Assembly (NCBI GenBank): GCA_001785175.1 | Contig: MFSY01000129.1 | Span: forward strand, 1,435-17,493 | DNA length: 16,059 nt | DNA from: Candidatus Muproteobacteria bacterium RIFCSPHIGHO2_01_FULL_65_16 | Lineage (GTDB): Bacteria; Pseudomonadota; Gammaproteobacteria; Acidiferrobacterales; Sulfurifustaceae | Reading direction: 5' to 3' | In this document: piece by piece, positions 2,357 through 11,298 of the stretch | Layout of the letters: each line of letters begins with the position of its first letter | Numbering within the stretch: position 1 is the stretch's first letter | The notes under the pieces: generated by a model | Databases searched by the model: none | Seen by the model: the letters and a program-made list of their open reading frames with translations, nothing else | What the model was told of the DNA's origin: nothing | Translations under genes and position numbers: made by a program

Positions 2357-3634
2357 TTGACCTTGAGTGCTGACCCGCTCGGCGCGCTCGTCGCCGCCCT
2401 GATTTTCCTCATCCTGCTGTCCGCGTTCTTCTCCGCAGCTGAAATCGGCCTGATGACCCTGAACCGCTACCGCCTGCGGAGCCAGGCGGAGGCCGGACAT
2501 CGCGGCGCGCGTCTGGCGCGCAAGCTCCTCGAGCGCCCCGACCGGCTGCTCGGGGTGATCCTGCTCGGCAACAACTTCGCCAACATCGCCGCCTCGTTTG
2601 TCGCCTCGCTGATCACGCTGCAAATATACGGCGAGCGGGCGCTCGCCGTCGCGGCGGCGCTGCTGACGTTCGTGGTGCTGGTGTTTTCCGAGGTCGCCCC
2701 CAAGACGCTCGCCGCGCTCAACCCGGAGCGCGTCGCCTACCCCGCGGCCTACGTCCTGCGCCCGCTGCTGCTCACGTTTTATCCGCTGGTGTGGCTCACC
2801 AACATCATCGCCAACGGGACACTGCGCCTCTTCGGCATCTCGGTCAGGAAAAAGACCCCGACCGAGATCACCGCCGAAGAGCTGCGGGCGCTGGTGCGCG
2901 AGGCCGACGTGCTGATTCCCGAGGCGCACCAGGACATGCTGCTCGCCATCCTCGATCTCGAGAAAATCACCGTGGACGACATCATGGTGCCGCGCAACCG
3001 CATCGAGGGCGTCAATCTGGACGCCGACTGGGATGAGATCGTGAATCAGCTCACCGGCAGCCGCTATACCAATCTGCCGGTCTACCGCGGGAGCCTCGAC
3101 AACGTTGTCGGCGTGATCCATGTGCGCCTGGTGCTGAACCTCATGCGCGAAGGCAGGCTGGAGCGCGAATCGCTGCAGGCGGCCGTGGCTGAACCGTACT
3201 TCATCCCGCAGGGGACCACGCTCAACACCCAACTGCTCAACTTCAAGGAGGCCAAGCGGCGCATCGGGCTGGTGGTGGACGAATACGGCGACATCCAGGG
3301 GCTGGTGTCGCTCGACGAGATCCTCGAGGAGATCGTGGGCGATTTCACCACCCGGGCGCTGGGCAAGATCGAGGATGTCACGCCGCAGGCGGACGGCAGT
3401 TACCTCGTGCGCGGCACGGTGAATCTGCGGGACCTCAACCGCAAGCTCGACTGGCGGTTGCCGACGGAGGAATCCCACACCCTGAACGGCCTGATTCTGG
3501 AGTATCTGGAGGACATCCCGGAAGCCGGAACCAGCCTCATGCTGAACGGCTACCAGATCGAAATCCTGCGCACCCGCGGGACCGCCGTGGAGGTGGCGCG
3601 CGTCCGCCCCGCGCGTCCCGGAGCCCCCGCGTAG
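2357..3634 (+). CDS. CNNM/CBS/CorC-domain membrane protein (HlyC/CorC family, YfjD/CorB-like)
   Basis: A 425-residue protein that follows Escherichia coli YfjD closely by eye. An N-terminal CNNM (DUF21) membrane domain covers about 5-190 and includes SAFFSAAEIGLMTLNRYRL and LLGNNFANI. A paired CBS domain (about 205-335) starts after VDDIMVPR and includes DEYGDIQGLVSLDEILEEI. A C-terminal CorC/HlyC domain (about 345-420) includes LNGLILEYLEDIPEAG. The family is linked to magnesium/cobalt efflux or resistance, with the CBS pair sensing adenine nucleotides. The start is uncertain: TTG at 2357 or TTG at 2363 both fit, and neither has a good ribosome site. A 12-codon ATG reading frame at 2338-2373 overlaps it out of frame. 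The gene has its own candidate promoter. Family assignment is firm; the transported ion is not shown. Confidence 0.9.
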   Translation: MTLSADPLGALVAALIFLILLSAFFSAAEIGLMTLNRYRLRSQAEAGHRGARLARKLLERPDRLLGVILLGNNFANIAASFVASLITLQIYGERALAVAAALLTFVVLVFSEVAPKTLAALNPERVAYPAAYVLRPLLLTFYPLVWLTNIIANGTLRLFGISVRKKTPTEITAEELRALVREADVLIPEAHQDMLLAILDLEKITVDDIMVPRNRIEGVNLDADWDEIVNQLTGSRYTNLPVYRGSLDNVVGVIHVRLVLNLMREGRLERESLQAAVAEPYFIPQGTTLNTQLLNFKEAKRRIGLVVDEYGDIQGLVSLDEILEEIVGDFTTRALGKIEDVTPQADGSYLVRGTVNLRDLNRKLDWRLPTEESHTLNGLILEYLEDIPEAGTSLMLNGYQIEILRTRGTAVEVARVRPARPGAPA

Positions 3635-3827: not shown

Positions 3828-5855
3828 TTGTCGCCTCTGAGTCTCGCCTATCTGGCATTAGCGTGCGCCCTGGCGTCGGGCGTCTTGTCCCTCGGCGCGG
3901 ACCGTTATGCGTCGCTGCTGCGTTACGGTTCGACCATTCTGCTCGGCGCGGCTGGTCTGGCGGCCGTCGGCGCCGGCGGCTGGAGTCTGCTGCACGAATC
4001 GCGCCACGCCGATCAACTCCTGCTCGGGCTGCCCTGGCTCAAGTGGCATGTGCGCCTCGATCCGCTTTCCGGATTCTTTTTCGTCGTCGTCGGCCTGCTC
4101 GTGGCCGCCGTGAGCCTCTACGCGCCGGGTTATCTGCGCGAATTCGCGCACCGCCAGAACATCCACTCGCGCGCCGCGCTCGGCGTGGCCACCGCGTTGT
4201 TCGTCCTCGGCATGTTGCTGGTGCTGCTGGCCGACGACGCCTTCGTGTTCATGATCGCCTGGGAGCTGATGTCGGTGTCGTCCTATTTCCTCGTCGCCTA
4301 TCAGCACCAGCACGCGCCCAACCGCCGCGCCGCGTTTCTGTACCTGCTGATGGCGCACGTCGGCGGGCTCGCGATCCTGCTCGGCTTCGGCGTGCTCGCC
4401 GCGTTCGGCGGCGGCTTCACCTTCGAGGCCATGCGCGCCGCGAATCTCTCCGCCGCCTGGGCCTCGATCGCGTTCGCGCTGGTCTTCTTCGGCTTCGGCA
4501 TGAAGGCCGGCATGGTGCCGCTCCACGCGTGGCTGCCGGAGGCGCACCCGGCGGCGCCGTCGCACATCTCCGCGCTCATGAGCGGCGTGATGCTCAAGGT
4601 GGCGATCTACGGTCTCGTGCGCCTGACCTACGACCTGATCGGCGATATCCAGTGGCAGTGGGGCGTGGCGGTGCTGGTCCTCGGCACCGCCTCCACCCTC
4701 CTCGGCGTGCTGTACGCGCTGATGCAGCACGACCTCAAGCGCCTGCTCGCCTACCACTCGGTGGAGAATATCGGCATCATTCTCATGGGCCTGGGCCTGT
4801 CCATGATCTTCATCAGCAACGGCAAGCCGGTGCTCGGCGTCCTGGGCCTGGTGGCGGCGCTGTATCACACGCTCAATCACGCGCTGTTCAAGGGCCTGCT
4901 GTTCCTCGGCGCGGGCGCCGTCGCCCACGCCTGCGGCGAAAACGATCTGAACAACATGGGCGGGCTGATCCGGCGCATGCCCCAGACCGCGGTGTTCTTC
5001 CTGGTCGGCTGTCTGGCGATCTCGGGCCTGCCGCCGCTGAACGGCTTTGTCTCGGAGTGGCTCACGTTCCAGACCGCGCTGCAGGCGCCGGCGCTCGCCA
5101 GCGGCGTGCTGCGCGCGCTCATTCCCATCGCCGCCGCGGTCCTGGCGCTGTCGGCGGCGCTCGCCGCCGCCTGTTTCGTCAAGGTCTACGGCGTGGCCTT
5201 TCTCGGCCAGCCGCGCGGCCGGCGCGTCGGCCACGCGCACGAGGTGGACATCGGCATGCGCGCGGCCATGGGGCTGCTGGCGCTGCTGTGCCTGGTCTTC
5301 GGCGTGCTGCCGACATTCTTTATTGACGCGATTGACGGCATCCCGCGGATGCTGCTCGGGATCACGCCGCCGAGCGCGACCGCCGGCGGCTGGCTGTGGC
5401 TGACGCCGGTCTCGCCCAGGGTGGCGTCGTATTCCGCCCCGCTCGTGTTCGCCGGCGTCGTCCTCATCGGCGGCCTGGTCTTCCTGCTGCTGCGGGTGCG
5501 GCGGAAGAACATCCGGCGCGGCTATCCCTGGGACTGCGGCTTCGGCGCGCTCAACGCGCGCATGCAGTACACCGCCACCTCTTTCTCCATGCCGATCCGG
5601 CGCGTGTTCGCGCCGGTGTGGGACATCGAGGAGGAGATCGAGGAAACCAAACACGCGAACCAGCCGTTCCGGCCCGCGGCCATCCGCCACCAGCTGCACG
5701 TGCAGGACAAATCCTGGCCGCGGCTGTACGAGCCCATCGGCCGCCTGGTGCTCGCCGCCGCGCGCCGCATCGGACTGATCCAGACCGGCAGCATTCACAC
5801 CTATCTCGCCTACTCGTTCTTCACGCTGCTGTTGCTGCTGTGGGTGGTCACATGA
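3828..5855 (+). CDS. hyfB: Hydrogenase-4-type antiporter-like subunit B (NuoL/MrpA family)
   Basis: A 675-residue polytopic membrane protein of the proton-conducting NuoL/M/N and Mrp antiporter family; HyfB proteins are usually about 670 residues. The family's key charged residues are visible: Glu146 in the motif AWELMSVSSYFLV and Lys226 in GFGMKAGMVPLHAWLPEAHP, followed by YHTLNHALFKGLLFLGAG and SGLPPLNGFVSEWL. The HyfB-specific C-terminal region is intact from YPWDCGFGALN (566 on) through QYTATSFSMPIRR. The TTG start is preceded by AGGA at 3819-3822. It opens the six-gene operon, and its TGA overlaps the hyfC ATG (ATGA at 5852-5855). In the complex it would move protons or sodium ions, coupled to the peripheral arm. 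Start codon moderately sure, family very sure. Confidence 0.93.
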   Translation: MSPLSLAYLALACALASGVLSLGADRYASLLRYGSTILLGAAGLAAVGAGGWSLLHESRHADQLLLGLPWLKWHVRLDPLSGFFFVVVGLLVAAVSLYAPGYLREFAHRQNIHSRAALGVATALFVLGMLLVLLADDAFVFMIAWELMSVSSYFLVAYQHQHAPNRRAAFLYLLMAHVGGLAILLGFGVLAAFGGGFTFEAMRAANLSAAWASIAFALVFFGFGMKAGMVPLHAWLPEAHPAAPSHISALMSGVMLKVAIYGLVRLTYDLIGDIQWQWGVAVLVLGTASTLLGVLYALMQHDLKRLLAYHSVENIGIILMGLGLSMIFISNGKPVLGVLGLVAALYHTLNHALFKGLLFLGAGAVAHACGENDLNNMGGLIRRMPQTAVFFLVGCLAISGLPPLNGFVSEWLTFQTALQAPALASGVLRALIPIAAAVLALSAALAAACFVKVYGVAFLGQPRGRRVGHAHEVDIGMRAAMGLLALLCLVFGVLPTFFIDAIDGIPRMLLGITPPSATAGGWLWLTPVSPRVASYSAPLVFAGVVLIGGLVFLLLRVRRKNIRRGYPWDCGFGALNARMQYTATSFSMPIRRVFAPVWDIEEEIEETKHANQPFRPAAIRHQLHVQDKSWPRLYEPIGRLVLAAARRIGLIQTGSIHTYLAYSFFTLLLLLWVVT

Positions 5856-6799
5856 CGGCCTGGCTGCTCGGTGTGCTGCAAACCCTGCTGTTCGTCGTGA
5901 GCGCGCCGCTGCTCGCGGGCTGGATCAAGCGCGTCAAATGCCACATGCAGAACCGCGCCGCGCCCGCGCTCTGGCAGCCGTACCGCGATCTGGCGAAGCT
6001 GCTGCGCAAGCGCGTGGTGCTGGCCGAGCACGCCTCGTGGGTGTTCCGCGCCACGCCGTTTATCGTTTTCGGCGCCACGATCCTCGCGGCGGCGGTGGTG
6101 CCGTTGGTGCTGGCGCAGCACCCGGCCGCGGCCGTCGCCGACGTCATCGTGCTCGTCGGGTTCCTCGCGCTCGCGCGTTTCTTCACCGCGCTCGCCGGCA
6201 TGGACATCGGCACCGCCTTCGGCGGCATGGGCTCATCGCGCGAGATGATGATCGGGGCGCTCGCCGAGCCGGTGATGCTGATGGCCGTGTTCACCCTCTC
6301 GATGACCGCCTCCACGACCAACCTTTCGGAGGCCGTCGGCTACACGCTCAACGGCGGCCTGGTGCTGCGGCCGTCGTTCGTCTTCGCGCTCCTCGGCCTC
6401 ATGATGGTGGCGGTGGCCGAGACCGGACGCATCCCGGTGGACAACCCGGCCACGCACCTCGAGCTGACCATGGTGCACGAGGCCATGATCCTGGAATACT
6501 CGGGGCGCCACCTGGCGCTCATCGAATGGGCGGCGCAGATCAAGCTCATGGTTTACATGGTGCTGATCGCCAACATCTTCCTGCCCTGGGGCATCGCCAC
6601 CGAATTGACCGCGCAGGCCGCGGCGCTCGGCGTGACCGCCATCGGCGCCAAGCTCGCCCTGCTCGGCGTGCTGCTGATCCTGTGGGAGACGGTCATGGCC
6701 AAGATGCGGCTGTTCCGCGTGCCGCAATTCCTCGGCTTCGCCTTCCTCCTGAGCCTGCTCGGCATGCTGACGCACGTCGTGCTGGAAACCGGAGGATAA
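5852..6799 (+). CDS. hyfC: Hydrogenase-4-type membrane anchor subunit C (NuoH-like)
   Basis: A 315-residue hydrophobic protein of the NuoH/HyfC/HycD family. This subunit connects the peripheral iron-sulfur arm to the antiporter-like subunits. The diagnostic acidic loop is present: ETGRIPVDNPATHLELTMVHE at residues 190-210, equivalent to the loop that faces the N2-cluster subunit. The early motif DLAKLLRK and the stretch FGGMGSSREMMIGALAEPVM also fit. The start is the ATG overlapping the hyfB stop. Longer in-frame extensions upstream lie wholly inside hyfB and are rejected. After its TAA the operon is interrupted by a 127-base repeat element before hyfE. All residues expected of the family appear present. 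Confidence 0.93.
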   Translation: MTAWLLGVLQTLLFVVSAPLLAGWIKRVKCHMQNRAAPALWQPYRDLAKLLRKRVVLAEHASWVFRATPFIVFGATILAAAVVPLVLAQHPAAAVADVIVLVGFLALARFFTALAGMDIGTAFGGMGSSREMMIGALAEPVMLMAVFTLSMTASTTNLSEAVGYTLNGGLVLRPSFVFALLGLMMVAVAETGRIPVDNPATHLELTMVHEAMILEYSGRHLALIEWAAQIKLMVYMVLIANIFLPWGIATELTAQAAALGVTAIGAKLALLGVLLILWETVMAKMRLFRVPQFLGFAFLLSLLGMLTHVVLETGG

Positions 6800-6808
6800 A
6801 GAGGATAG

Positions 6809-6908
6809 ACAGGATTTACAGGATTTCTCAGGATTTACAGGATTAATTCATGAAACCTTTTTTCAGTTTTAATCTTGTTAATCCTGTTTTTAATCCTGTA
6901 AATCCTGT
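6809..6908. repeat. Inverted array of ACAGGAT words between hyfC and hyfE
   Basis: The left arm has four ACAGGAT-like words starting at 6809, 6818, 6828 (TCAGGAT) and 6837. The right arm has four complementary words (ATC[CT]TGT) starting at 6872, 6881, 6893 and 6902. Word spacing is mostly 9-10 bases, rising to 12 once. The arms can pair into a long imperfect stem with an AT-rich loop. It is followed by a T-rich run (6911-6926) ending at the hyfE ATG, so in RNA it resembles a terminator or attenuator. From memory, ACAGGATT-type arrays are dispersed in many bacterial genomes. It contains no coding sequence. Confidence 0.85.
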
Positions 6909-6926
6909 CCATTTTATTTTTTTCTT

Positions 6927-7634
6927 ATGGATTTAACGCAGTTAGGTTTGTTCGATCAGGCGGTGCTGCTGTTTGCGGCATTTGTGCTGTTTACCTCGTT
7001 CGTCATGCTGGCGCAGGCGCGCATTGTGCCGCTGATTCACACCTTCGCCTGGCAGGGGGCGCTGCTCGCCGTCACCACGGCCCTGGTCGCCTACGCCACC
7101 AGGCATCCGCACCTGTATCTCTCGGCCGGGATCACGCTGATACTCAAGGCCGCGCTGATCCCGTGGCTGCTGCACCGCCTCACCGTGCGCCTCGGCATCC
7201 AGCGCGAGGTGGAGGCGCTCGCCTACCCCACGCTCGTGTTGATCGCGGGTGGCGCGCTGGTGATCTTCAGCTATTACGTCGCGCTGCCGATCGTGCAGCT
7301 CTCCGCCATGGTCACGCGCAACACCATCGCCGCCGGCATCGCCATCGTCCTGCTCGGCATGCTGCTCATGATTGTGCGCAAGAAGGCGATCTCGCAGGTG
7401 ATCGGCTTCATGTCGATCGAGAACGGCCTGTTCTTCGCCGCCGTGGTCTCCACCTACGGCATGCCCATGGTGGTCGAGCTCGGCATCGCCTTCGACGTGC
7501 TGGTCGCGGCCGTGCTGTTCGGCGTGTTCTTCTTCCAGATGCGCGCCTCGATTGACTCGCTCGACGTGGACCGCCTCAACCGGCTGCGCGAGGTGGACGA
7601 GCCGGCGCCCGCCCCGGAGGAGACCGCGCCGTGA
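6927..7634 (+). CDS. hyfE: Hydrogenase-4-type membrane subunit E
   Basis: A 235-residue membrane protein with about seven hydrophobic helices. The C-terminal half matches HyfE by eye: KKAISQVIGFMSIENGLFF, then VVELGIAFDVLVAAVLFGVFFFQMR, then a charged tail IDSLDVDRLNRLREVDE. HyfE-type subunits occupy the NuoJ/NuoK-like position of the membrane arm. The ATG at 6927 has no Shine-Dalgarno sequence; the preceding bases are ATTTTATTTTTTTCTT, part of the repeat element region. Translation may depend on the repeat hairpin or on weak A/T-rich initiation. The last codon overlaps the hyfF start (GTGA at 7631-7634). Confidence 0.9.
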   Translation: MDLTQLGLFDQAVLLFAAFVLFTSFVMLAQARIVPLIHTFAWQGALLAVTTALVAYATRHPHLYLSAGITLILKAALIPWLLHRLTVRLGIQREVEALAYPTLVLIAGGALVIFSYYVALPIVQLSAMVTRNTIAAGIAIVLLGMLLMIVRKKAISQVIGFMSIENGLFFAAVVSTYGMPMVVELGIAFDVLVAAVLFGVFFFQMRASIDSLDVDRLNRLREVDEPAPAPEETAP

Positions 7635-9097
7635 CCGCGCTCTGGCTCACGCTGCTCATTCCGCTGCTCGGCATCGCCGTCGGCGCGCTCATCGGCCAGC
7701 GGCGCCACGCCGGCTGGGTCAACGTCGCCCTGACGGCGGCGACCCTGGCGGCCGCGCTCTGGCTCGCGTATACGGTGCTGGACCGGGGGCCGCAGCTGTC
7801 CCCGGGCAAGATGTTTTACATAGACGCCTTCAACGTCTATCTCGTGGCGTTGACCGCGTTCGTCGGCCTGACCACGGCGATCTTTTCCCGCACTTATATG
7901 CTGCACGAGGTGGAGCGGCGGCGCCTCGGCAAGCGGCGCATGCGCCTGTACCACTCCATGTACCAGGGCTTCATGTTCGCCATGTTCGCCGCGCTCACCA
8001 CCAACAACGTCGGCATCCTGTGGGTGGCGATGGAGGGCGCCACGCTCGCCACCGTGCTGCTGGTGTCGCTCTACCGCACGCCCGAGGCGATCGAGGCGGC
8101 GTGGAAGTACTTCATCCTCTGCGGCGTCGGCATCGCCCAGGCGCTCTTCGGCACGGTGCTCCTCTACTTCGCCGCCGAGCGCGTGATCCCGAACCCCGAC
8201 GATGCGCTGCTGTGGAACGTGCTCTACGCCGCCGCCAGCCAGCTCGAGCCGACGGTGTTGACGCTGGCGTTTGTCTTCCTGCTGGTGGGCTACGGCACCA
8301 AGGTCGGCCTGGTGCCGCTGCACAACTGGCTGCCGGACGCGCACTCGGAGGGCCCGACGCCGATGTCGGCCATCCTCTCGGGCCTGCTGCTCAACGTCGC
8401 GCTCTACGCCCTGGTGCGCATGAAGATGATCGTGGACGGCTCGCTCCATTCGCATCTCGCCGGTTATCTCATGATGGGCTTCGGCATGCTGTCGTTCCTG
8501 GTCGCGGGGCTGTTCCTGCACCGCCAGCGCGACATCAAGCGCATGTTCAGCTACTCCTCGATCGAGCACATGGGGCTGATGACCTTCGCCTTCGGGCTCG
8601 GCGGCGCGCTCGCCACCTTCGGCGCGCTGCTGCACATGACGGTGCACTCGCTCACGAAGAGCGCGATCTTCGTCACCGTCGGCCACGCGGCCCAGATCGC
8701 CGGCACCCAGAGCATCGAAAAGATTCGCGGCCTCATCCGCACCCAGCCCGCCGTCGGCTGGGGCCTGCTCATCGGCGCGGTGGCGATCGCCGGCTTCCCG
8801 CCGTTCGGCGTGTTCACCAGCGAATTCCTGGTGCTCACCGCCACGATGAAATCCTGGCCCTGGCTCACGCCGCCGCTGCTCGTGGGTCTGGCCATCGCCT
8901 TCGCCGGACTCTTCCGCCACCTGCACCCGATGGTGTACGGCGAGGCGCCCGCGGGCCAGCAGCGGGTGACGGCCAACATGCTGCCGGTGCTGCTGCACCT
9001 CGCCTTTGTCCTGTGGCTCGGGCTCGCGATCCCGGCGTTTCTCGCCGACTGGTTCAGCCAGGCCACGAAGCTGATCTCCGGGAGCTCGCCGCTGTGA
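7631..9097 (+). CDS. hyfF: Hydrogenase-4-type antiporter-like subunit F (NuoL/M/N family)
   Basis: A 488-residue polytopic membrane protein, the second antiporter-like subunit of the operon. Family residues are visible: Glu135 in LWVAMEGATLATVLL and Lys224 in GYGTKVGLVPLHNWLPDAHSEGP, then MTVHSLTKSAIFVTVGH and IAGFPPFGVFTSEFLVL. The N-terminal motif TTNNVGILWVAMEG is typical of HyfF rather than HyfD or HyfB. The GTG start overlaps the hyfE stop, and its TGA overlaps the hyfG GTG start (GTGA at 9094-9097), so translation of E, F and G is coupled. Length is close to the roughly 480-530 residues usual for the family. No HyfD-like third antiporter subunit is present. Confidence 0.93.
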   Translation: MTALWLTLLIPLLGIAVGALIGQRRHAGWVNVALTAATLAAALWLAYTVLDRGPQLSPGKMFYIDAFNVYLVALTAFVGLTTAIFSRTYMLHEVERRRLGKRRMRLYHSMYQGFMFAMFAALTTNNVGILWVAMEGATLATVLLVSLYRTPEAIEAAWKYFILCGVGIAQALFGTVLLYFAAERVIPNPDDALLWNVLYAAASQLEPTVLTLAFVFLLVGYGTKVGLVPLHNWLPDAHSEGPTPMSAILSGLLLNVALYALVRMKMIVDGSLHSHLAGYLMMGFGMLSFLVAGLFLHRQRDIKRMFSYSSIEHMGLMTFAFGLGGALATFGALLHMTVHSLTKSAIFVTVGHAAQIAGTQSIEKIRGLIRTQPAVGWGLLIGAVAIAGFPPFGVFTSEFLVLTATMKSWPWLTPPLLVGLAIAFAGLFRHLHPMVYGEAPAGQQRVTANMLPVLLHLAFVLWLGLAIPAFLADWFSQATKLISGSSPL

Positions 9098-10677
9098 CGA
9101 CTGCGTGGATCGCCGATTTCCTCGATCAACTCGAAGCGCGGGGCATCCCGGCGCGGGAGGCGCCGGCGCCGGGCCTGGCGCCCGCGCGACTCGTTCAGGT
9201 GGACGCCGCCGACTGGGGGCGGCTCGCGCACGCCGCGAGAGACTTCGAATGCCGCTGGGTGGCCGGCTGGGGCGAGGATGGCGGCGACGACCTGCTCGTC
9301 AACGCCTGTTTCGAAAAAGATGGCGCTTATCTCGTCGCCCGCGCCGCGGTCAAGCGCGCGGCGCCGACGCTGCCGTCGCATGCGCCGTACTATCCCGCCG
9401 CCGACCGGCCGGAGCGGCACACGCGCGACATGCTCGGGATCGTCTTCCACGATCACCCCGACGCGCGCCGCTGGACGCGCCATCAGGCCTGGAAAGATAC
9501 CGAATATCCGTTGCGCCAGGACTTTCCCGTCGCCGGCAACCGCCCCGCGCAAACGCCGCCGGACGACGGCTACGGCTTTCTGCGCGCCCAGGGTGCCGGC
9601 GTGTATGAGATTCCCGTCGGCCCGGTGCACGCCGGCATCATCGAGCCGGGGCACTTCCGCTTTCAGGCCGTGGGCGAGATGGTGCTGAACCTGGAGGAGC
9701 GGCTCGGTTACGTGCACAAGGGCATCGAGAAGATCGCCGCAGGCCGCGACGCCGCCGGACTCGCGCGCCTCGCGGGGCGCGTATCCGGCGATTCCACCGT
9801 GGCGCACGCCTGGGCCGCGTGCATGGCGCTGGAACGGGCGGCCGGCGTCAAACCCCCGCCGCGGGCCATAGGTCTGCGCGCGCTCATGGCCGAGCGCGAG
9901 CGCGTGGCCAATCATCTGGGCGACATCGGCGCGATCTGCAACGACGTGTCCTTCACCTTCGGCTTTTATCAATTCGGCCGCCTGCGCGAGGAGTGGACGC
10001 GCCTGAGCCGGTCGGCCTTCGGCCACCGCTTCATGATGGACCGCGTCATCCCGGGCGGCGTCGCCGCCGACCTCGACGTCCAGGCCGCGGCCGCGATGGA
10101 GCGACAGATCGTATCCCTGCGCAATGAGCTCGGCGGCCTGTTCAATATCCTCGATGATCTGCCGTCGCTCGAAGACCGCCTCGACACGACCGGCTATCTC
10201 GATCCGGCGACGGCGAAGGCGTTGGGCGCGCTCGGCTATGTCGGACATGCGAGCGGGGTCGCCTTCGATGTGCGGCGCGACGCCGCCTATCCGCCCTACG
10301 ACGCGCTGAAGGTCGAGGCGCCGGTGTTCAAATACGGCGACGTGGCGGCGCGCGTGAAGGTGCGGGCGCGGGAAACCCTGGCGTCCCTGAATATCATTGA
10401 AACACTGCTGGCGCGGCTGCCCGAAGGCCCGATCGGCGCCGCCTGGAAGGCACCAGCCGCCGGCGCCGAGGGGCTGGGGCTGACGGAGGGCTTTCGCGGC
10501 GAGTGCCTGGCCTACGTGCGCTTCGACGAGAATGGAAGAATCGCGCGCTACTTCCCGCGCGACCCCTCCTGGCTCACCTGGCCGGCGCTGGAAATACTGA
10601 TCCGCGACAACATCGTGCCGGACTTCCCGGTATGCAACAAATCCGTGAACGGGTCGTACTCCGGCCATGATTTATGA
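9094..10677 (+). CDS. hyfG: Hydrogenase-4-type large subunit G (NuoC-NuoD fusion) lacking all NiFe ligands
   Basis: A 527-residue cytoplasmic-arm subunit. The N-terminal third is NuoC-like (RPERHTRDMLGIVFHDHPDAR from about 105, then PLRQDFP near 140). The rest is NuoD/[NiFe] large-subunit-like (GPVHAGIIEPGHFRF, then LGYVHKGIEKIAAGRD). In HycE/HyfG of E. coli the nickel-iron site is held by RVCGIC and a C-terminal DPCYSC. Here the matching positions read RVSGDS (229-234) and NGSYSG (519-524), so all four cysteines are gone. No CxxC occurs anywhere in the protein. It also ends three residues later (HDL), with no cleavable tail. It should not bind nickel or handle H2 and is best called an Ehr-type subunit. 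The GTG start overlaps the hyfF stop. Other conserved blocks are intact, so it is not a decaying gene. Confidence 0.9.
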   Translation: MTTAWIADFLDQLEARGIPAREAPAPGLAPARLVQVDAADWGRLAHAARDFECRWVAGWGEDGGDDLLVNACFEKDGAYLVARAAVKRAAPTLPSHAPYYPAADRPERHTRDMLGIVFHDHPDARRWTRHQAWKDTEYPLRQDFPVAGNRPAQTPPDDGYGFLRAQGAGVYEIPVGPVHAGIIEPGHFRFQAVGEMVLNLEERLGYVHKGIEKIAAGRDAAGLARLAGRVSGDSTVAHAWAACMALERAAGVKPPPRAIGLRALMAERERVANHLGDIGAICNDVSFTFGFYQFGRLREEWTRLSRSAFGHRFMMDRVIPGGVAADLDVQAAAAMERQIVSLRNELGGLFNILDDLPSLEDRLDTTGYLDPATAKALGALGYVGHASGVAFDVRRDAAYPPYDALKVEAPVFKYGDVAARVKVRARETLASLNIIETLLARLPEGPIGAAWKAPAAGAEGLGLTEGFRGECLAYVRFDENGRIARYFPRDPSWLTWPALEILIRDNIVPDFPVCNKSVNGSYSGHDL

Positions 10678-10680
10678 GTT

Positions 10681-10762
10681 TTTGACGCAAAGTCGCGAAG
10701 ACGCAAAGATGTTTTCGATCTTATTCGTGCATTTCTTTGCGCCTTTGCGTCTCTGCGTCAAA
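10681..10762. repeat. Inverted array of ACGCAAAG words between hyfG and hyfI
   Basis: Two 29-base arms, 10681-10709 and 10734-10762, are inverted copies with 25 of 29 positions matching. Each arm is three variants of an 8-base word close to ACGCAAAG. They are separated by a 24-base AT-rich loop and can form a long stem. It fills nearly all of the 99-base gap in the operon, leaving only AT-rich bases before the hyfI ATG. Elements of this CGCAAAG type are, from memory, scattered in intergenic regions of many bacteria. Confidence 0.88.
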
Positions 10763-10776
10763 TGATCATATAAAAT

Positions 10777-11298
10777 ATGTTACGAATTTTAGGCAAAATT
10801 CAGCGCATCGGCGTCGTCACCGAGCCGCTGCCGAAGATCGAAGAGCCCGCGCTCGCGGAGGTCGGCGCGCAGATCAAGGCGTGCGTCGGGGAACTCTTCG
10901 GGGGAAGCCTGGCGATCCGCCAGGTGGACGCCGGTTCGTGCAACGGCTGCGAGCTGGAGATCCACGCGCTCAACAATCCCTACTACGGCATCGAGCGCTT
11001 CGGCGTGCACTTCGTGGCCAGCCCGCGCCACGCCGACATGCTGCTCGTGACCGGCCCGGTGTCGCGCCACATGGAAGCGGCGCTGCGCCGGACCTACGAC
11101 GCCACGCCCGAACCGAAACTGGTGATCGCCGTCGGCGAGTGCGGCGCCAACGGCGGCGAGTTCGGTGTGTCCTACGCCTCGTGCGGCGCGGTGACTAATG
11201 TAATTCCGGTGGATGCGGTGATCCGCGGCTGCCCGCCGACGCCGCTCGACCTGATGCGCGGGATTCTGGAGGCGATCGGGAAGCAAAGTAGCCGCTGA
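10777..11298 (+). CDS. hyfI: Hydrogenase-4-type small subunit I (NuoB-like, N2-type iron-sulfur protein)
   Basis: A 173-residue peripheral-arm protein of the NuoB/HycG/HyfI family. Four cysteines expected to bind one 4Fe-4S cluster are present: Cys55 and Cys58 in SCNGCELE, Cys122 in GECGANGGEFG, and Cys152 in RGCPPTP. The spacing CxxC matches the hydrogenase type rather than the adjacent CC of complex I. It pairs with HyfG. In this operon its cluster is the only one predicted, because no HyfA or HyfH ferredoxin gene is present. The ATG at 10777 has no evident Shine-Dalgarno site; the upstream bases are AT-rich and follow the ACGCAAAG repeat element. It is the last gene of the operon. Confidence 0.93.
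   Translation: MLRILGKIQRIGVVTEPLPKIEEPALAEVGAQIKACVGELFGGSLAIRQVDAGSCNGCELEIHALNNPYYGIERFGVHFVASPRHADMLLVTGPVSRHMEAALRRTYDATPEPKLVIAVGECGANGGEFGVSYASCGAVTNVIPVDAVIRGCPPTPLDLMRGILEAIGKQSSR

Follow-up and report, generated by a model that had tools for sequence, protein, structure and literature searches.

The window analysed here, a stretch of 16,059 nucleotides (contig MFSY01000129.1, positions 1,435 to 17,493) from Candidatus Muproteobacteria bacterium RIFCSPHIGHO2_01_FULL_65_16, carries a complete six-gene hyf operon. Its hyfG gene (also ehrL, positions 9094 to 10677; all features described here lie on the + strand) encodes a fused 30-kDa and large subunit of hydrogenase type that lacks all four ligands of the nickel-iron (Ni-Fe) site. 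We are almost certain, by its defining features, that HyfG belongs to an Ehr (energy-converting hydrogenase-related) complex as its large subunit. The explanation that we favour as a whole, and hold to be probable though well short of assured, is that a six-subunit, complex I-like Ehr complex has exchanged the Ni-Fe site for a polar pocket and would carry out redox-coupled proton transfer with a substrate other than H2. The Ehr class is already known; what is new is the pocket signature, the kept proton-transfer glutamate and the lack of the complex I quinone residues. Of the 398 Pseudomonadota genomes sampled here, 63 encode an Ehr-type large subunit. These subunits belong to the complex I/hydrogenase family, and records still name them hydrogenase 4 or formate hydrogenlyase. 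If their reaction were solved, it would become clear which partners other than H2, quinone and sulfur a complex I-type pump can have, and the pocket signature, the metal-free proton glutamate, the lack of a visible electron input and the existence of tractable hosts make the function of Ehr amenable to specific tests.

The HyfG protein and its Ni-Fe ligand positions

The hyfG frame begins with a GTG codon overlapping the stop codon of hyfF, is open throughout and gives a product of 527 amino acids. This product matches the Pfam models Complex1_30kDa and Complex1_49kDa and the N-terminal stretch of NiFeSe_Hases, and phmmer aligned it with HycE of the E. coli formate hydrogenlyase (7z0s; E 1.3e-65) and also with MbhL, NuoCD and Nqo4. 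The best match of its AlphaFold2 model (pLDDT 84.3, pTM 0.89) in the Protein Data Bank is 7z0s_E (TM 0.87), and the predicted fold is hydrogenase/NuoCD-like.

As indicated by the alignment with HycE, the L1 signature RVSGDS (residues 229-234, positions 9778 to 9795) stands opposite RVCGIC, and NGSYSG (L2, residues 519-524) stands opposite DPCYSC. The latter is part of a longer L2 and carboxy-terminal signature, NKSVNGSYSGHDL (residues 515-527, positions 10636 to 10674), whose N515-K516 pair faces I-G of HycE. A preliminary description of this DNA was thus right in stating that all four nickel-ligand cysteines are replaced and that the protein contains no CxxC, as its six cysteines (residues 53, 72, 243, 282, 471 and 514) form none. 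It had also claimed that no cleavable C-terminal tail is present, and indeed HyfG ends with GHDL at L527, three residues beyond L2, whereas the seven HycE-type loci that we fetched have 35 residues beyond the last L2 cysteine, the first ones being TDR. We take the cleavage site of HycE to lie after this TDR and, if so, hyfG would encode the mature length directly.

We compared 141 large-subunit sequences, made up of 80 related loci, 60 loci of a phylum sample and the window; the two samples were pooled, and one species may occur in both. The signature, the retention of E184 and the missing polyferredoxin subunit (see below) were all examined within Pseudomonadota. None of the 141 rows has residues beyond the L527 column or a CxxC at L1, and 8 have a CxxC elsewhere in the protein. 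Residues H179, E184, H208, D233, R468, G469, F511, P512, N515, K516, S517 and Y522 are invariant in all 141. Position 231 is Ser in 137 rows (Cys in 3, Ala in 1) and position 234 is Ser or Thr in 125 (Ala in 7, Cys in 5, Met in 4); S521 is Ser in 137, N519 is Asn in 140, and G524 and D526 are Gly and Asp in 140 each, with one gap. In the narrower set of 81 sequences (the 80 related loci and the window), no more than one row deviates at 134 positions. Of the replacement pocket first proposed, S231, D233, H525 and D526, the member H525 is not conserved, being His in only 65 of the 141 rows; judged by conservation, D233, K516, N519, S521, Y522 and D526 would be better candidates than H525.

Because the L1 and L2 substitutions are conserved across 141 loci, a sequencing error is ruled out. 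A decaying hydrogenase (or such an error) would account for the loss of the ligands and for nothing further, and the identical signature in all these loci, the 90 positions at least 97% conserved among them, the open hyfG frame and the complete operon leave this explanation practically no probability; the change is a functional one, as the preliminary description had held. Going by the residues present, H2 chemistry of the [NiFe] type is excluded for HyfG.

The assignment to Ehr, which had also been put forward earlier, is borne out by homology to group 4 hydrogenases and NuoD, by the absence of both CxxC motifs and by the co-encoded small subunit and Mrp/NuoL-like membrane subunits. What would mark a group 4a [NiFe] hydrogenase is missing: the four Ni-Fe cysteines, the C-terminal tail, HypD in the window's own genome and, by a motif search of ORFs (open reading frames) of at least 90 amino acids, HycB/HycF-type subunits in the operon. 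HypD is absent from 41 of the 63 Ehr genomes, including the own genome (G000, 79% complete), and present in 22, a count that excludes a match below the cut-off in G093. As had been suspected, the label hydrogenase 4 is misleading, because the metal-binding site is lost and a different conserved pocket is kept. We also built a tree from 48 of the 141 Ehr rows with HycE, MbhL and Nuo rows (no named Ehr or MbsL row was included, and the 136-residue fragment L185 was dropped). The Ehr rows separated from HycE, MbhL and all Nuo rows except the divergent L187 on a branch of support 92/95, a value below the tool's star and accompanied by long-branch warnings.

Published sources describe Ehr as a group 4-like complex without Ni-Fe ligands and of unknown function (PMC6349859, PMC10284858, PMC10432482, PMC7894505, PMC12342949). 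The Ehr complexes of Geobacter, Nitrospira, ammonia-oxidising archaea and Margulisbacteria resemble the present one, by description, in their group 4-like large and small subunits, their antiporter-like subunits and their lack of CxxC. HydDB places Ehr among the hydrogenase homologues that lack H2 metabolism (PMC5037454), and Ehr expression in N. moscoviensis is reported not to be raised by H2 (PMC12342949). Mbx of Pyrococcus is likewise counted among the hydrogenase-related complexes (PMC6349859) but, unlike Ehr, has a reaction ascribed to it. A Sideroxydans cluster termed formate hydrogenlyase (PMC5178258) and the hydrogenase-4-like genes without HyfA of a vent sulfur oxidiser (PMC4136832) may, from their descriptions, be the same thing as Ehr. 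In the openly readable literature we found no reaction for Ehr of this type, no link between Ehr and inorganic carbon and no E184/K516 signature.

The pocket compared with hydrogenases, complex I and MBS

Residue E184 aligned by phmmer with E21 of MbhL, the proton-transfer glutamate of hydrogenase, and R468 is the arginine of the RG motif, kept from hydrogenase. In the alignment with Nqo4, Gly232 occupies the position of Tyr87 of complex I and Ile183 that of His38, in agreement with the earlier remark that the quinone tyrosine of complex I has no counterpart in HyfG. The small subunit HyfI (hyfI/ehrS, positions 10777 to 11298; PF01058, E 1.2e-28) has one predicted [4Fe-4S] site made of C55, C58, C122 and C152. 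Every one of the 131 rows has the first two; C122 is Cys in 128 rows (3 gaps) and C152 is Cys in 126 (4 gaps, 1 Ala). C55 and C58 have the CxxC spacing of hydrogenases, whereas complex I has adjacent cysteines. With E184, R468 and a proximal cluster of the CxxC type retained, and H38/Y87 and the adjacent-Cys cluster missing, the HyfG pocket is nearer to that of hydrogenase than to that of complex I.

These residues bear on the proposal that Ehr is a quinone-linked oxidoreductase with a different quinone site, which would take electrons from a soluble donor such as ferredoxin and serve forward or reverse electron transport in chemolithotrophs and methanotrophs. The homology to NuoD/NuoCD, the NuoH-like HyfC and hosts that often carry RuBisCO, or are methanotrophs by their titles, fit this proposal. 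However, Gly232 and Ile183 stand at the Tyr87 and H38 positions, the proximal cluster is of CxxC and not CC type, a NuoI-like subunit was not seen, and the own genome already carries a full-length NuoD-type gene. We consider a quinone-linked function unlikely, and the pocket residues make quinone binding of the complex I type by HyfG unlikely as well.

HycE (7z0s) and the HyfG of hydrogenase 4 are among the closest known relatives. They provide the closest solved structure and fold, have the same fused 30-kDa domain and share the positions of E184 and R468; the small subunit HycG is of CxxC type, as in Ehr. They differ in that Ehr lacks the four Ni-Fe cysteines and the C-terminal tail, that no ferredoxin-type subunits were seen and that the own genome has no HypD. 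MBH (MbhL, 6cfw) shares E21 with Ehr and, unlike Ehr, keeps Ni-Fe. NuoD/NuoCD of complex I is a homologous large subunit whose GEIDR-type C-terminus, compared by eye, apparently ends at the same place. In contrast to complex I, the Ehr operon has no NADH or NuoI module, its cluster is CxxC instead of CC, and Tyr87 and His38 have no counterpart.

The MBS of Pyrococcus (MbsL, 6u8y) resembles Ehr in the loss of Ni-Fe cysteines, two of the four being gone. It lacks E21 and has a p-cluster with three cysteines (PMC7684303), whereas Ehr has four cluster cysteines and E184. Ehr therefore does not appear to be a step on the path to MBS, because it has lost the metal ligands and yet kept the proton glutamate and the hydrogenase-type cluster. 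For the same reasons we find it highly improbable that Ehr reduces sulfane sulfur or polysulfide as MBS does; record titles mark many hosts as sulfur oxidisers, which agrees with that function, but the methanotroph and Rhizobium hosts do not fit it.

Partner subunits and the proposed mechanism

The six genes hyfB, hyfC, hyfE, hyfF, hyfG and hyfI are co-directional between positions 3828 and 11298. The first, hyfB (3828 to 5855), encodes an antiporter-like membrane subunit of the Proton_antipo_M family (PF00361, E 8e-58; NF005086, hydrogenase 4 subunit B, over its cut-off), and hyfF (7631 to 9097) encodes a second antiporter-like subunit (PF00361, E 9.4e-53; NF005045 over its cut-off). Between them lie hyfC (5852 to 6799), which overlaps the hyfB stop and encodes a NuoH/HycD-like membrane anchor (PF00146, E 8.6e-37), and hyfE (6927 to 7634), whose product is like hydrogenase 4 membrane subunit E with a NuoK-like part (PF00420, E 7.8e-4, and NF008556, E 5e-20, both below cut-off). 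The channel-type residues E146, K226, K257 and K355 of HyfB (113 rows) and E135, K224, K343 and E398 of HyfF (136 rows) are at least 97% conserved.

By a strict count, all six genes are present in 108 of the 141 stretches. Twenty-nine of the remaining 33 have too little flank, and L010, L038, L055 and L063 are incomplete despite enough of it. In four loci titled Thiomargarita, Thioploca or Thiotrichaceae (L042, L044, L055 and L063), no match to hyfI was found and few membrane genes stand beside hyfG; the operon may be split there, with ample flank only in L055 and L063.

We also looked for an electron-input subunit. The motif CxxCxxCxxxC occurs in no ORF of at least 90 amino acids inside the operon in any of the 141 stretches, and electron input of the HycB/HycF/NuoI type was therefore not seen. 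Seven ORFs with this motif were found in the stretches, six of them within 6.5 kb of hyfG and outside the operon. ORFs with two such motifs lie downstream of the Ehr operons of L131 (14157-16272) and L158 (13249-15364) and are Rnf-like by size only.

In the mechanism that we propose, the ancestral Ni-Fe site would have been replaced by a conserved polar pocket. A soluble redox protein would dock on HyfI, and electrons would pass in one direction or the other through the single [4Fe-4S] cluster between this protein and a small substrate other than H2, bound by D233, S231, S521, K516, N519 and R468. The proton transfer that goes with this reaction would be linked to the proton motive force (PMF) by E184 and the membrane arm. 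What the sequences themselves point to is the loss of the four Ni-Fe ligands, the substitute signature, the tail-less C-terminus, the channel-type residues, the four cysteines of HyfI and an operon in which no polyferredoxin subunit was seen; the redox-coupled proton mechanism with a soluble partner, taken by itself, has in our opinion about an even chance of being correct.

Several points weigh against this mechanism. We identified no electron donor or acceptor, and we found no functional data on this Ehr subfamily in the literature. The characterised redox relatives have a subunit of the NuoI/HycF/MbhN type. None was seen here, the search having covered one motif in ORFs of at least 90 amino acids near the operon; in MBS this subunit is MbsN (PMC7684303). 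It is possible that the electron-input subunit is encoded elsewhere or that the function is not a redox one. Finally, the pocket loops of the AlphaFold2 model have low confidence (pLDDT below 50 at residues 162-198, 505-508 and 523-527), and we therefore used the model for the fold only.

A formate dehydrogenase (FDH) might also be the partner, as in the FDH-Ehr proposed for Margulisbacteria (PMC6349859), or the complex might be a formate hydrogenlyase, as the Sideroxydans cluster is annotated; in Geobacter, the abundance of Ehr subunits was higher on formate than under conditions with hydrogen (PMC7894505). However, the FdhA model TIGR01591 was over its cut-off in only 21 of the 63 Ehr genomes, and the HycB-like cluster motif is absent from the operon. 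Some match to this model exists in 61 of the 63, as expected for related oxidoreductases, and the best one of the own genome (E 2.8e-28) is below the cut-off. FDH was thus rejected as a general partner for this set, and we judge a formate-linked function to be very unlikely.

Genome distribution, neighbouring genes and further copies

The operon without a visible electron-input subunit also suits a non-redox function, in which the PMF would drive the hydration of CO2 or the accumulation of bicarbonate: CO2 would be hydrated in the polar pocket and the complex I-type arm would remove the proton, with no net redox change. Ehr would then be a third architecture of energised inorganic-carbon uptake, its Lys/Arg/Asp pocket and proton glutamate handling CO2 or bicarbonate at the expense of the PMF, and in chemolithoautotrophs it would act alongside SulP transporters and carbonic anhydrases of the carboxysome type. 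In the vectorial carbonic anhydrases DAB and NDH-1MS, a complex I-type proton subunit is coupled to chemistry (PMC13144422). The likeness is one of function only, as the folds and the catalytic subunit are different, and DabA is found neither in the own genome nor in the 39 genomes that have both Ehr and RuBisCO.

In the genome survey, Ehr matches had 43-53% identity (the own genome apart), compared with 32-34% for HycE-type proteins and 32% or lower for complex I, and Ehr is present in 36 of the 57 genomes of the window's order. Of the 62 Ehr genomes besides the own one, all but G049 and G144 were fetched as loci. Bona fide RuBisCO is found in 39 of the 63 Ehr genomes, the own one included, and in 59 of the 335 others (p 4e-12); by family, the counts are 13 of 22 with Ehr and 8 of 66 without (p 3e-5). 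This count excludes RuBisCO-like proteins, which gave full-length matches of about 200-247 bits, as well as weak matches in G001, G282 and G361, and includes fragments such as those of G164 and G245 (the latter only 31 bits). Within the largest family, f40, no association was seen: RuBisCO is present in 24 of 31 genomes with Ehr, but 33 genomes have RuBisCO without Ehr. The link between RuBisCO and Ehr therefore exists only between lineages, and family size may confound it. DabA was found in 0 of the 39 genomes with both Ehr and RuBisCO, compared with 5 of the 41 tested among the 59 with RuBisCO and no Ehr (p 0.055), a difference that is no more than suggestive of an exclusion.

Neighbours were analysed by custom ORF calling, which yielded no operon block in 13 of the 141 loci, and neighbour counts are lower bounds because contig ends often cut the flanks. 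In 17 of the 141 loci a SulP gene is found at most about 2 kb from the operon, namely in eleven methanotrophs, L005, L007, L027, L028, L042 and L152 (family f39), two short SulP-like fragments (L136 and L075) being left out. SulP as a general partner was rejected: it is adjacent in 16 of the 80 close loci but in only 1 of the 60 phylum-sample loci, a lineage-specific pattern, and with SulP present in 350 of the 398 genomes the phylum-sample figure is, by a rough estimate, near chance. SulP proteins transport a range of compounds (PMC10880623), and the five c20-type SulP tested were all over the sulfate permease cut-off.

Among 35 loci fetched from the window's order besides its own, many of which repeat loci of the related 80, SulP is upstream in L190, L191, L192 and L196, and a gene like carboxysome shell carbonic anhydrase directly follows hyfI in L191, L193, L194 and L197. 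It is open in the first three and broken in L197 (5725-6476). L191 has the full single row of SulP, CorC, hyfBCEFGI and the carbonic-anhydrase-like gene. Such neighbours occur in 7 of the 13 loci of the window's family and in 0 of the 22 of other families. The best solved match of the carbonic-anhydrase-like protein is CsoSCA, with a weak E of 0.04; some of its relatives match PF20686, some are named carboxysome shell carbonic anhydrase and many are hypothetical, and the copy of L006 matches TIGR02701 below cut-off (E 1.7e-8) and no Pfam model at 1e-5. In the own genome no match to SulP, to this protein or to DabA was found.

Taken together, the SulP and carbonic anhydrase neighbours are a lead towards inorganic carbon, not proof of it. 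The invariant K516 and R468 would suit an oxyanion, but a ligand set of the zinc type is not visible in HyfG, and the kept cluster cysteines of HyfI would be needless in a non-redox enzyme. We thus give PMF-driven CO2 hydration a small chance, and the broader idea of a third uptake architecture one just as small, and retain redox-coupled proton transfer as the favoured function.

Upstream of the operon, the window encodes a TauE/SafE-UspA-UspA fusion (positions 293 to 2233; PF01925, PF00582), a candidate anion transporter that may be linked to the operon, and a CorC/CNNM-type protein (2357 to 3634; PF01595, PF03471), a recurrent neighbour in close relatives for which a link is also conceivable. 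The TauE cluster is upstream of the operon in L005, L014 and L042 too; the CorC cluster occurs in 9 loci including the window, and in L007 it is downstream instead. Another cluster, c5 (XRE-like by eye), is present in 24 loci and is the next gene upstream in 19.

The six-gene unit is also carried by plasmids. It occurs on pRL11 of Rhizobium johnstonii 3841 (RL_RS31255 to RL_RS31230), on pSRDI969_4 and on a Methylocalor plasmid, where transposases flank it on both sides; the annotations on these plasmids read hydrogenase 4, formate hydrogenlyase or NADH-quinone oxidoreductase. A gene recorded as a helix-turn-helix regulator overlaps hyfB on both Rhizobium plasmids.

Second hyf-type genes stand beside the first operon in L017 (12272-19654), L020 (3-4163), L021 (16409-21576), L013, L011 and L046. 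The second large subunits of L017, L020 and L021 fall in another Ehr subclade of the tree and have NLSYSG ends. Beside its Ehr operon, L015 encodes a large subunit of a third type (14512-16209), which is 33% identical to the query and ends with FDLSYCGNDL. The large subunit of L187 (G039:C1:757500-759700) is 27% identical, has RINAVD at L1 and ends with STGVDL; it is perhaps a distant cysteine-less class. The second copy of L015 and L187 form long branches whose placement in the tree is unsure.

The 99-nucleotide gap between hyfG and hyfI (10678-10776) is a palindromic element with 37-nucleotide arms that are 81% complementary; it has 63 matches in the own genome, some being both strands of one place. 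Among 131 loci, the estimated size of this gap is 30 nucleotides or fewer in 106, with a median of 9. The gap between hyfC and hyfE (6798-6919) holds a second, different inverted-repeat element with 28-nucleotide arms and CAGGATTTACAGGATT repeats.

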